From: Marinobacter excellens HL-55
GTDB lineage: Bacteria; Pseudomonadota; Gammaproteobacteria; Pseudomonadales; Oleiphilaceae
NCBI GenBank assembly: GCA_001314845.1
Contig: LJZQ01000016.1
Span: forward strand, 1 to 64,000
Direction of reading: 5' to 3'
DNA length: 64,000 nt
The position numbers and the translations under genes were made by a program. Shown here one piece after another: positions 48,285 to 54,430 of the stretch (position 1 is the stretch's first letter; the number at the start of each line of letters is the position of its first letter). The notes under the pieces are model-generated. The model saw only the letters and a program-made list of their open reading frames with translations. It did no database searches and had not been told where the DNA came from.

Positions 48285-49406
48285 TCAGTGACGTTTAGGG
48301 CCAACGATCACAGCGGCCTGCAACGGTTGATTGCGGCCGTAGCTCGACATTTTTCCGAATACCCGTTTGTCGATGGGCAGATACTGCTTATCGGCAACGG
48401 TTTCGCCCTCTTCAACGTCGATCTCCGGGTCGTGCAGGTACACAAAGTCGTCGTCCATGGCGCAGACAGTGACCCAATGCGGTACCCGGCTGCGGTTCAA
48501 TTGCCAGGTGCTGATCAGGATGACCGGAATCTGGCCTTTGTGCAAAGCGGATTCCATGGCTTCCAGCGTGAGCGGGTCATGGTGTAGCTGAATGCCGGTC
48601 TGGCCGATGTCGTGCAGAAAGCCTTCATGCACCAGTTCCAGCACCCGCTTTTTATCATCATTTCGTACCGTGTCTTTAAACAGCGCTCCCTCCTGGCTGA
48701 TCCAGGCGCTGGCTTCAAAACCGCGATGCCAGGCCGACAGCGCCAGGCCGTGTGGGCCGCAACCCCCATGGCCGGCCAGCATGAAAATGGTGGTGGCCTC
48801 GCGCCAGATTTTCAGCTCTTCCAGGGTGTTCAGTGTTTGATGCTCATCCAGTGCCGCCATAGCCATAATCAGAGCCGAGGGGCCACAGGTGAACTCGGTG
48901 GTTTGCGGGTAATAGGGCACCGGCAGGTATTCACGGGAGGGCTCGTAGTACAGGATCCGGCGCTCAAAACGCAGCGCCGTGCCGTGGTCTTCGTAGTAGT
49001 CCCGGTAAGTGCCGAACTGGCGATAACCCAGGCGACGATAAAGGTTGATGGCGCCGGCGTTGTCTTCCCGCACTTCCAGGCGCATCACGATACGGTCAGC
49101 ATCGACGGCTTCTTTTTCGGCTTCACGCACCAGCATTTCGCCCACCCCACGGCCTCGCACGGAGGGCGACACCGCAATCGAGTAGATTCTGGCCAGACGG
49201 GTGGCTGCATTCATCAAGACCAGGCAGTAACCCACCAGCTCGGAATCCTGCTCGGCAACGATCAGCCGGTCTCGGGGCATTTCAAGAAATCGCCGGAAGC
49301 TCCGGCGTGAAATACGGTCTTCACTGAAGCAGCGGTTTTCCAGTTGCACCAAAGGGGTCAGGTCGTCGGCGACGGCTTGTCGAAGCAGTACATCAGGCAT
49401 AAACAT
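48285..49406 (-). CDS. GNAT acetyltransferase fused to a C39-like peptidase
   Basis: 373 residues from ATG 49406. First half is a RimI-like GNAT domain: VLLRQAVADDLTPLVQLENR, YSIAVSPSVRGRGVGEMLVR (acetyl-CoA loop) and AINLYRRLGYRQFGTYRDYY. Second half is a papain-like C39 fold with Cys174 in EFTCGPSALIMAMAAL and His310 in VPHWVTVCAMDD followed by LHDPEI. It faces the RimK-like ligase gene across about 190 bases. The pairing of GNAT, papain-like peptidase and ATP-grasp ligase is one proposed by comparative genomics for making and trimming modified peptides; no function has been shown here. No signal peptide. Confidence 0.88.
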   Translation of the reverse strand: MFMPDVLLRQAVADDLTPLVQLENRCFSEDRISRRSFRRFLEMPRDRLIVAEQDSELVGYCLVLMNAATRLARIYSIAVSPSVRGRGVGEMLVREAEKEAVDADRIVMRLEVREDNAGAINLYRRLGYRQFGTYRDYYEDHGTALRFERRILYYEPSREYLPVPYYPQTTEFTCGPSALIMAMAALDEHQTLNTLEELKIWREATTIFMLAGHGGCGPHGLALSAWHRGFEASAWISQEGALFKDTVRNDDKKRVLELVHEGFLHDIGQTGIQLHHDPLTLEAMESALHKGQIPVILISTWQLNRSRVPHWVTVCAMDDDFVYLHDPEIDVEEGETVADKQYLPIDKRVFGKMSSYGRNQPLQAAVIVGPKRH

Positions 49407-49598
49407 CAAACCCCGGGGCGTAAAGAGAGCGGGAAGCTGGCGAGCACTTCCTCCGCAGCTATTATGGTAGAGACAGGTGGGTTTCGATAGCGGTCAATCA
49501 TGCGTAAAGCACGCATCACTGGCTGATTGTGGAGTTGCCTGTGGCGGCGTATTGTGGCGCCCATTACCCGGCTGAACCTTCAGGGAGGAATGCCATCT

Positions 49599-51098
49599 AT
49601 GTCCCGTTTGTTAATCGTTGTGGATCGAGCCAAAGATTGGGCGCCTTATTATCCCAGTGAAGATGTTCTGACGTTTGATGAGTATCTGAAGTTTACCGCA
49701 CCGGCCAACAGCCGTGTGCGGGTCATCAATCTGTGTCAGAGCGCAAAATATCTGAGCCGTGGCTACTACTGTTCGCTGCTGGCTGAAGCCCGTGGCCACC
49801 ATGTGGTGCCGTCGGTCATGACCCTTAACGATTTGAGTCGGAAGGGGCTGTTTTCTCTGGAGCTGGAAGAGCTGGACCACAGCGTCATTCAATGGCTGGA
49901 AAAGGAAGCCAAGGAAATTGACCCCTCCATTGATGACCGGGACGCTACCCATGAAGTGCGCATACGCACCTATTTTGGCCAGGCCGAACATCCGGACCTG
50001 AAACCGGTGGCTCGTGCGCTGTTCGATCGGTTCCCGTGTCCGCTTTTGGAGGTGGTGTTCCGCCATCGCAAACAGTGGCAGATTGAGTCCATGAAGCCTG
50101 CCGGTCCGGCTGATCTGGATGAGCGTGAGCAGGATCTGTTTGCGGCCGCCCTGGACCGTTTCAGCAGCATGGTCTGGCGCAAGCCCAGAACGCGCAGGCG
50201 CTATCGGTTTGACTTGGCGATGTTGGTGAACCCGGAAGAGGAAATGCCACCCAGTGACGAAGCCGCGCTCAAGCGCTTCGAGCGGGCAGGTCGCAAACTG
50301 GGCATCAATGTCGAGCGGATTACCCGTCGGGACTATATGCGCCTGCCGGAATACGACGGTTTGTTTATTCGTGAAACCACCGCCATCGACCATCACACCT
50401 ACCGCTTTGCCCGTAAGGCAGAGGCCGAAGGCATGGTGGTGATTGATGATCCGGTGTCTATCCTGCGTTGCACCAACAAGGTGTTTCTGGCGGACTTGTT
50501 GAAGAACAACAAGGTGCCAACACCCAAGACGATGATCCTCTCCAAAGATCAGAAAGACGCCGTTGAACAGGTGTCGAGTGAGCTGGGCTTTCCGGTGGTG
50601 ATCAAGATTCCGGACGGCGCTTTCTCTCGTGGCGTGGCCAAGGCGAAGGATGAAAAAGAGCTGAAGGCCGGGCTCAAGGAACTGTTCAAGCAGTCGGCCC
50701 TGGTGTTGGCCCAGGAGTATTTTTACACCGATTACGACTGGCGCATTGGTGTGCTGGGTGGTCGGGCGATCTATGCCTGCAAATACCTGATGGTGAAAGG
50801 GCATTGGCAGATCTACCAGCATGGCGGCCCGGCCATAGAGAGCGGGGGCTTTGAAACCATGCCAACCTATGAAGTGCCCCGGAACGTTATTCAGGCTGCA
50901 CTCAACTCCACCCGACTGATTGGCAACGGCCTGTATGGTGTGGATATCAAGCAGTCCGGCAATCGGGTGGCTGTGATCGAGGTGAACGACAACCCCAGTA
51001 TCGATTCCGGTGTGGAAGATAAATTCTTGGGTGGCGAACTCTACACTCTGGTCATGCAGGAATTTCTTTCCCGCATGGAAGAGAATCGCCGCCGGTAA
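49599..51098 (+). CDS. RimK-family ATP-grasp ligase with N-terminal extension
   Basis: 499 residues from ATG 49599 behind GGGAGGA. About 285 N-terminal residues of a family-specific domain (LLIVVDRAKDWAPYYPSEDV, AKYLSRGYYCSLLAEARGHH) precede an ATP-grasp core: GLFIRETTAIDHHTYRFARK, PVVIKIPDGAFSRGVAKAKD (glycine-rich ATP loop), YFYTDYDWRIGVLGGRAIYA and VAVIEVNDNPSID, the metal-binding end. ATP-grasp RimK enzymes join amino acids, usually glutamate, to proteins or peptides. Divergent from the GNAT-peptidase. Substrate unknown. Confidence 0.9.
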   Translation: MSRLLIVVDRAKDWAPYYPSEDVLTFDEYLKFTAPANSRVRVINLCQSAKYLSRGYYCSLLAEARGHHVVPSVMTLNDLSRKGLFSLELEELDHSVIQWLEKEAKEIDPSIDDRDATHEVRIRTYFGQAEHPDLKPVARALFDRFPCPLLEVVFRHRKQWQIESMKPAGPADLDEREQDLFAAALDRFSSMVWRKPRTRRRYRFDLAMLVNPEEEMPPSDEAALKRFERAGRKLGINVERITRRDYMRLPEYDGLFIRETTAIDHHTYRFARKAEAEGMVVIDDPVSILRCTNKVFLADLLKNNKVPTPKTMILSKDQKDAVEQVSSELGFPVVIKIPDGAFSRGVAKAKDEKELKAGLKELFKQSALVLAQEYFYTDYDWRIGVLGGRAIYACKYLMVKGHWQIYQHGGPAIESGGFETMPTYEVPRNVIQAALNSTRLIGNGLYGVDIKQSGNRVAVIEVNDNPSIDSGVEDKFLGGELYTLVMQEFLSRMEENRRR

Positions 51099-53893: not shown

Positions 53894-54106
53894 TTACGTT
53901 GCGGTTACGTTGGCTAACTTGTGGATGCCGGAGACGCCGGTCATGCCCTCCCAGTTATCTGTGCGGCCTTCTCGCCACCCATTCAACCATTCCTGACGCC
54001 CTTCTGGTTGATCAATCGGGCAGCTGTCTTTTGATTTGCCGGACACGCCAGCGAGATAACCCCGCTTGAATGCACGAGCGTACATATCTCTCTTCTGTCT
54101 TTTCAT
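53894..54106 (-). CDS. rmf: Ribosome modulation factor
   Basis: 70 residues from ATG 54106: MKRQKRDMYARAFKRGYLAG, then CPIDQPEGRQEWLNGWREGR, the RMF hallmark. Dimerises 70S ribosomes to inactive 100S in stationary phase. Normal length plus a short tail. Sits between pyrD and rlmKL as in Pseudomonas. Upstream starts lack a ribosome-binding site. Confidence 0.95.
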   Translation of the reverse strand: MKRQKRDMYARAFKRGYLAGVSGKSKDSCPIDQPEGRQEWLNGWREGRTDNWEGMTGVSGIHKLANVTAT

Positions 54107-54430
54107 GCCGTTCCTCACTGATGGATTAACAGAAAATCGTGTACACATCTGCAGTGACCGCGGCAAAGTAGGTACCCATCCGGGATAACCCACTATTGCC
54201 AGCTCCGGTCAGAGCAGTCAGGATCCTGTTAACGGAAGCATTGTTTATTGAGCTTCCGGAACGACGCGTCAACTACAAGGTAAGACGAACCTTGCGCGGA
54301 TGTACACTATTTATTTCGTCTATGTGAAGCTTTTCTTATAGGTTTGTGAAATAACGATGACAGCCCTACTATGGGTTTTGCTGCTTTTCCGGCGGCTTAC
54401 CGGCTTTATCCAGAAAACCAGGAGTTGATT
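54107..54430. other. Intergenic region rmf-rlmKL
   Basis: 324 bases with no gene. It should hold divergent promoters for rmf (left) and rlmKL (right). I see no palindrome, repeat or riboswitch in it. Confidence 0.5.

Follow-up and report, generated by a model that had tools for sequence, protein, structure and literature searches.

Two adjacent, divergently oriented genes in a 64,000-nucleotide stretch of Marinobacter excellens HL-55 DNA (contig LJZQ01000016.1, positions 1 to 64,000, hereafter the window) belong to a real unit whose products work together. One encodes a GNAT acetyltransferase domain fused to a DUF3335 (papain/C39-like) peptidase domain and the other an ATP-grasp ligase of the RimK type preceded by an RLAN domain. 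An initial annotation of this DNA had proposed a divergent GNAT-C39 fusion and RimK-like ligase; both open reading frames (ORFs) are indeed present in this orientation, with family scores above the cut-offs.

To assess the linkage we used an evenly sampled set of 276 genomes of the class and a second set of 299 genomes of the phylum. The RLAN ligase was found in 63/276 and 60/299 genomes, respectively, that is in about one fifth of those sampled, and 14 control genomes all lacked it. With an E-value limit of 1e-70, by which 5 weaker hits were dropped, full DUF3335 occurs in 44 of the 276 class genomes, and 43 of these 44 also carry RLAN, where independence predicts about 10. Both genes are adjacent (within 4 kb) in 41 of the 44. 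Among the remaining three, both genes lie at contig ends (G178), they are on different contigs (G054) or only DUF3335 is found (G137). The pair, which recurs in many Proteobacteria, therefore belongs together across the class, as had been proposed, rather than splitting apart in most genomes. The family scores and this conserved pairing exclude a chance association.

We then compared 182 RLAN loci: 63 from the class (window included), 80 from named relatives and 39 from the phylum, where neighbourhoods were taken from 39 of 63 RLAN places. Since the named loci are best matches to the window, are not random and possibly overlap in species with the sampled genomes, these totals are not frequencies. 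Genes were called from our own choice of ORFs with starts trimmed by profile, no gene finder being used. Of the 175 loci that are not cut off by a contig edge, 171 have RLAN next to a GCS2 ligase, an acetyltransferase or a C39-like peptidase. The class and named loci gave 119 acetyltransferase/ligase pairs, whose arrangement is divergent in 78, tandem with GNAT leading in 37 and with the ligase leading in 3, and convergent in 1. Tandem gaps (GNAT leading) span -8 to 67 bp, and their most frequent value is -4 (9/37 overlap by 4 bp), which would be the usual sign of coupled translation. In a comparison of 146 loci over flanks reaching about 5 kb, one AspC-like match at 32% was the sole recurrence of the window's flanking genes outside the six Marinobacter loci of the named set. 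Thus, the pair is kept while its surroundings change.

The composition of the loci is variable. A GNAT-DUF3335 fusion was present at 112 of the 182 loci, a related stand-alone GNAT (acetyltransferase scoring no more than 380 bits with a custom profile) at 47, a second form described below at 12 and no partner at 11, of which 7 are at a contig edge. The corresponding numbers in the class sample alone were 41, 7, 12 and 3, and no full DUF3335 was found elsewhere in the 7 class genomes with GNAT-only loci. In a FastTree phylogeny of 141 ligases, the GNAT-only label changes 9 times, at least 5 of these changes being forced by supported branches; the exact count is unsure as some long branches meet. 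Moreover, three genomes of the window's order (G324, G328 and G401; loci L232-L237) contain two ligase copies, one beside a GNAT-DUF3335 gene and the other beside a GNAT alone. These variants and paralogous pairs indicate that the link between acetyltransferase and ligase persists where the peptidase domain is absent, a domain that is thus optional in the module. The initial annotation had combined ligase, transferase and peptidase for synthesis and trimming of a peptide modification or small peptide. These activities fit, but a requirement for the peptidase as third activity was not supported, as it is missing at 47/182 loci.

The second form (12 class loci) constitutes a single clade of the ligase tree (support 100). 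It lacks the acetyltransferase and includes a free-standing peptidase (11/12), a GCS2-family ligase (11/12) and an N-formylglutamate amidohydrolase family protein (FGase, 10/12). The peptidase is Pfam Peptidase_C39_2 in the one member scanned. Profile comparison related it to DUF3335 (probability 95.6, E 1.2e-08, 155 columns), with alignment of the Q..TCGP, H(W/F)V and DP segments. GCS2 may substitute for the acetyltransferase here, both adding an acyl group to an amine. Together, the peptidase-less, GCS2/FGase and two-copy variants provide natural comparisons for the role of each part.

The acetyltransferase-peptidase protein of the window carries GNAT (PF00583 Acetyltransf_1, 73.9 bits, residues 20-129 of a 374-amino-acid ORF) fused to PF11814 (DUF3335, ‘Peptidase_C39 like’, 277.4 bits for a cut-off of 25, residues 164-369 of the same ORF), with the Q/C/H/D catalytic set in place. 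Numbered from ATG 49400, as throughout for this protein, Q166, C172 and H308 are identical in 112/112 GNAT-DUF3335 rows (window row included) while D324 is kept in 103 rows and replaced by E in the other 9. The active site is therefore intact as first described, but Cys174 and His310 of that description are Cys172 and His308. The AlphaFold2 model had a pLDDT of 91.9; its comparison with the Protein Data Bank (PDB) was dominated by the GNAT part and barely probed the DUF3335 fold. Scores fell below the cut-offs of PF13529 Peptidase_C39_2 (21.5 bits versus 24) and PF03412 Peptidase_C39 (17.1 versus 22), the latter ruling out a double-glycine exporter peptidase.

Sequence profiles and the structure model place the GNAT domain nearest to RimI/Naa10-type N-terminal acetyltransferases. 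It scores 89.7 bits with the rimI profile TIGR01575, above the curated cut-off of 86.4. The best solved structures by VIA are Ard1, RimI, Naa10, Naa30, Naa60 (Z 20.6-22.6), and the top 17 entries comprise 16 of RimI/Ard1/Naa type (9mto by its name) and one putative acetyltransferase (3f0a). The best single PDB sequence match is 3owc, an uncharacterised acetyltransferase. E109 and Y136, whose roles we carry over presumptively from RimI/Naa10, are each present in 112/112 fused proteins and 46/48 stand-alone GNAT rows.

The ligase consists of an RLAN domain (PF14401, 165.7 bits, cut-off 25) followed by a RimK-type ATP-grasp (PF08443, 45.6 bits, cut-off 21). The large N-terminal domain first described as uncharacterised is indeed large and bears this Pfam name; we know of no function for it. 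Its segment NLCRSYxYLSxGYYCSLLAEARGHxVIPS, with the motif NLC(R)xxxYLxxGYYxSLLAEAR, is extremely conserved. The claim that the ATP-grasp residues are intact was borne out across the family, with E461, N463 and P466 present in 180/182 rows (gaps in the remaining 2) and K294, K336 and R382 in 180-181/182. In the AlphaFold2 model (pLDDT 84.5, pTM 0.60) the nearest relatives of the core appear to be RimK, LysX and ArgX: for residues 200-499 the nine best VIA entries all belong to these enzymes (Z 26.9-28.6), including RimK from 28.6 (7qys) to 27.0, LysX at 27.4 (3vpd) and ArgX at 27.0 (3vpb), and the next class, D-Ala-D-Ala ligases, reaches 24.1 at best. No graspetide-type ligase was among the matches listed (best 50 VIA rows). 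A profile search matched 9 sequences, 7 RimK/LysX and two D-Ala-D-Ala ligases. In the PDB comparisons the ATP-grasp part took up the matches, so that the RLAN fold, for which we make no claim of novelty, was barely probed.

The source genome also encodes better matches to both enzyme families. RimK finds its strongest match on contig C2 (281 bits) and RimI on contig C27 (125 bits), the two window genes being second best (86 and 92 bits, respectively). Duplication of canonical RimK and RimI was rejected as a full account, given these separate, better genes and a ligase below the RimK cut-off. With a better RimI match on another contig, the window GNAT is probably not the bS18 acetyltransferase of this genome, judging from sequence. 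No GCS2 match was found in the source genome and its DUF2817 match was weak only.

Other proteins recur within 4 kb of these genes. One member each of DUF2817, Peptidase_M14 and DUF155, plus a second DUF2817, were identified by Pfam scan and the rest by custom profiles. DUF2817 (PF10994), which we take to be a member of the M14-like fold group, was found at 25 GNAT-DUF3335 loci, and at one further locus that lies at a contig end; in many cases it sits between the two genes. No solved structure matched it by sequence. Full-length DUF2817 occurs in 10 class genomes, 3 of which contain RLAN, adjacent in 3/3. Peptidase_M14, similar to carboxypeptidases A and T, was present at 5 GNAT-DUF3335 loci, and one GNAT-only locus includes a nearby protein with weak Peptidase_M14, DUF2817 and AstE/AspA matches. 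DUF155 (PF02582, RMND1 family) lies near the RLAN ligase at 14 loci of different lineages and both forms (L137, L145, L204, L215, L219, L229, L231, L243 and six class loci). The RMND1 family is linked to mitochondrial translation in eukaryotes. An M20 peptidase, presumably ArgE-like, is near the pair at 9 class loci and 1 phylum locus, at 4 of which a further gene, presumably ArgA-like, lies alongside; we read these arginine-type genes as a shared gene order of the lineage. In addition, a small acidic-ended protein (about 69 amino acids, weak DUF3545) adjoins the ligase at L078, L104 and L123 (near 4.5-4.8 kb), which come from three genomes of a single family. With the N-terminal acetyltransferase-type GNAT, the RimK/LysX/ArgX-like ligase, the M14-fold extra partners and the GCS2/FGase second form, the initial annotation is refined.

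Taken together, we tentatively prefer a reading in which the module tailors a single polypeptide at its two ends, the target being a protein or a ribosomally synthesized peptide whose gene lies elsewhere. The papain-like DUF3335 domain would cut the polypeptide to create a new amino end and the fused RimI/Naa10-type GNAT would acetylate the exposed alpha-amine. At the opposite end, the ligase, with RLAN as its target-recognising part, would activate the carboxylate with ATP and join an amino acid to it. Where present, the M14-fold zinc hydrolases (DUF2817, Peptidase_M14) could take off the added residue. Extension of bS6 by RimK and of LysW by LysX/ArgX provides the model chemistry for the ligase step. 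This reading is built on computed features (domain content, conservation of the catalytic residues, nearest enzyme classes, linkage and partner exchange), from which we infer the order of the steps, a target common to both enzymes, an amino acid as the added residue and reversal by the hydrolases. A polypeptide end is favoured as target since the enzymes nearest to GNAT and ligase alike modify the ends of proteins. The class placement of GNAT and ligase core gives concrete expectations, either a terminus that is N-acetylated and one that is C-extended, or an N-acyl peptide.

Several observations weigh against this reading. The GNAT placement is weakened since only 3/11 module GNATs pass the rimI cut-off (window, L113 and L227): 2/10 relatives pass and 8/10 are below, two of them by less than 1 bit. 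PaiA, a polyamine acetyltransferase, and other GNATs follow closely by VIA (Z 20.2, a small margin), and the Foldseek list includes SpeG-type polyamine acetyltransferases. At position 121, which we take to be that of the general acid proposed for RimI, 94 of 112 fused proteins have Y and 17 have F. As for the ligase, other LysX entries reach a VIA Z of only 23.8, and in Foldseek RimK comes first with D-Ala-D-Ala ligases interspersed from rank 12. Neither the RimK-family TIGR00768 cut-off (84.9 bits versus 143.4) nor that of the LysX profile (90.4 versus 275.6) is reached. The segment NTxRGG (LysX) or SNLHRGG (RimK) is absent and HWQIYxH...SGG stands in its place, so that the substrate probably differs and another amino acid or acceptor may be used. 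The analysis turned up no candidate substrate. Small N-acyl peptides are also among the products of these fold classes, and a small gamma-glutamyl-type peptide would explain the second form, which has no acetyltransferase, no less well. Finally, no small ORF (15-130 amino acids, within 1.2 kb of the core genes) conserved across architectures was found beside the pair in 141 loci, after removal of ORFs lying for the most part within a core gene or within an ORF of at least 200 amino acids, and of pairs more than 90% identical. The five clusters of at least three loci (6, 3, 3, 3 and 3 loci) never span architectures, and four of the five are limited to GNAT-only loci. An adjacent precursor peptide is disfavoured at these loci; a precursor encoded at a distance would still be compatible.

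Some of these points would suit a pathway for a small metabolite, such as a NAAG-like N-acetylated peptide, which we regard as nearly as likely as the preferred reading. GNAT would acetylate a short peptide or amino acid, to which the RLAN ligase would add a second residue, and the papain-like and M14-fold enzymes would recycle the product; in the second form, GCS2 would start the chain by a gamma-glutamyl bond, as happens in glutathione synthesis, and FGase would open an N-acyl-glutamate. One clade combines RLAN with GCS2, FGase and a C39-like peptidase that stands free, which looks metabolic, and DUF2817 and the AstE/AspA-like protein stand beside RLAN in other loci. The altered substrate loop of the ligase and the lack of a conserved small ORF adjoining the pair agree with it. 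The same enzyme kit makes N-acetylglutaminylglutamine (NAGGN), by GNAT plus ATP-grasp, and N-acetylaspartylglutamate (NAAG), by the RimK-like RIMKLA/B; part of the NAAG pathway is described in PMC8836185. On the other hand, the GNAT is nearest to protein N-terminal acetyltransferases and the ligase to protein-end ligases, the conserved papain-like peptidase would suggest a longer peptide, and the source genome has no GCS2 match.

Maturation of a ribosomally synthesized and post-translationally modified peptide (RiPP) is very unlikely in our judgement. The ligase would modify a leader-bearing precursor, the peptidase remove the leader and GNAT cap the product, as in microviridin-type graspetides, whose biosynthesis combines ATP-grasp ligases, GNAT and a leader peptidase (PMC13039773, PMC8939145). 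The small-ORF result at the loci searched speaks against it, and no exporter was recognised among the recurring neighbours that were annotated (part of the neighbour clusters). The ‘bifunctional protease’ of microviridin was rejected as a relative of the fusion, being an AplP homologue and not a GNAT-C39 protein (PMC13039773). That the two proteins act on unrelated substrates and share only a regulator or a history is likewise very unlikely: the window genes are divergent and not co-transcribed, but the arrangement is in tandem and often overlapping in other lineages, flanking synteny is lost and co-occurrence reaches 43/44 at genome level.

Extending the two-ended tailoring of a polypeptide, the module could be the bacterial equivalent of the enzyme kit that processes actin and tubulin tails, with a write-and-erase cycle that would cut, N-acetylate and C-extend one conserved cellular protein; we consider this unlikely. 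That kit includes the ACTMAP protease with NAA80, the TTL/TTLL ATP-grasp ligases and, as erasers, VASH-type papain-like and CCP-type M14 enzymes. Given the recurrent DUF155 neighbour, such an end-processing cycle is possibly linked to translation.

The features of the locus are listed in Table 1.

Table 1. Coordinates of the acetyltransferase-peptidase and ligase locus in the window
Feature	Position	Strand	Remark
GNAT + DUF3335 (papain/C39-like peptidase) fusion gene	48285..49400	-	371 amino acids counted from ATG 49400
GNAT domain, residues 1-150	48951..49400	-	rimI profile and VIA fold match
DUF3335 papain-like peptidase domain with Q166, C172, H308, D324	48303..48920	-	PF11814 and alignment
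Divergent intergenic region with inverted repeat	49401..49598	.	possible operator
RLAN + RimK-type ATP-grasp ligase gene	49599..51098	+	499 amino acids
RLAN domain (PF14401)	49677..50147	+	profile match, highly conserved motif
Pre-ATP-grasp and ATP-grasp core, residues 200-499	50196..51095	+	RimK/LysX/ArgX-like by VIA

Besides ATG 49400, ATG 49406 is a likely start for the minus-strand gene and TTG 49409 is also possible. The likely ligase start is preceded immediately 5′ by AGGGAGGA, and about 198 bp separate both likely starts. In this gap, a perfect inverted repeat TGCGT-N5-ACGCA (49501-49515) is the sole exact copy within the window (0.12 expected; 12/100 shuffles contain one). It is kept in the same gap of L129, L130, L131 and L132 and is imperfect in L128 and L133, all Marinobacter, and is a possible genus-level operator as judged by its sequence. 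The closest named ligase relative is 89% identical (M. profundi and others; this search may omit records very near the window), and the window genome is near Marinobacter. A flanking gene we take to be uvrB converges with the acetyltransferase-peptidase gene, whose end falls one base past it, and a presumed cation-efflux-type gene converges on the ligase gene. Beyond the latter are presumably pyrD, a ribosome modulation factor (RMF)-like ORF (53894-54193, about 3 kb from the ligase) and rlmKL. The RMF-like ORF is near the module in Marinobacter loci only.

Among known systems, NAGGN synthesis (TIGR03103) likewise involves GNAT, ATP-grasp and a peptidase partner. GNAT and ATP-grasp are in one protein there, whereas they are encoded by separate genes here, and the window GNAT gives 35.4 bits over residues 66-135 only, for a cut-off of 569. 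The mammalian N-acetylaspartate (NAA)/NAAG pathway (NAT8L, RIMKLA/B, GCPII, ASPA) offers a parallel set of GNAT, RimK-like ligase, peptidase and AspA-fold deacylase, a likeness compared at superfamily level; its GNAT class and peptidase fold are different. The pairing of GNAT-peptidase C39 with RLAN-RimK, with a likely peptide role, was reportedly predicted by comparative genomics by Iyer et al. in 2009, and the present system does not differ in kind from it, these presumably being the same proteins. According to a 2023 survey (PMC10318531), which cites Iyer et al. 2009 (ref 74), DUF3335 is often fused to GNATs, for which a role as peptide ligases or in acetylation is considered. As first stated, no product is established: no functional study, product or substrate for the pair was found in open-licence literature. 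The peptidase-less form, the paralogous pairs, the assignment to the N-terminal acetyltransferase class and the DUF2817/M14/DUF155 association were not found there either, and some of this may be in the 2009 study. RimK (bS6--L-glutamate ligase) and LysX/ArgX (LysW carrier-protein ligases) share the ATP-grasp core fold and the E/N residues with the window ligase, but the latter has an extra RLAN part of 200 residues, scores below both cut-offs and carries a different substrate loop, and canonical RimK is encoded separately in the source genome. Similarly, RimI/Naa10-type acetyltransferases share with the window GNAT the fold (Z about 22), passage of the rimI cut-off and the invariant E109 and Y136, whereas the window protein is fused to a papain-like peptidase and coexists with a separate canonical RimI.

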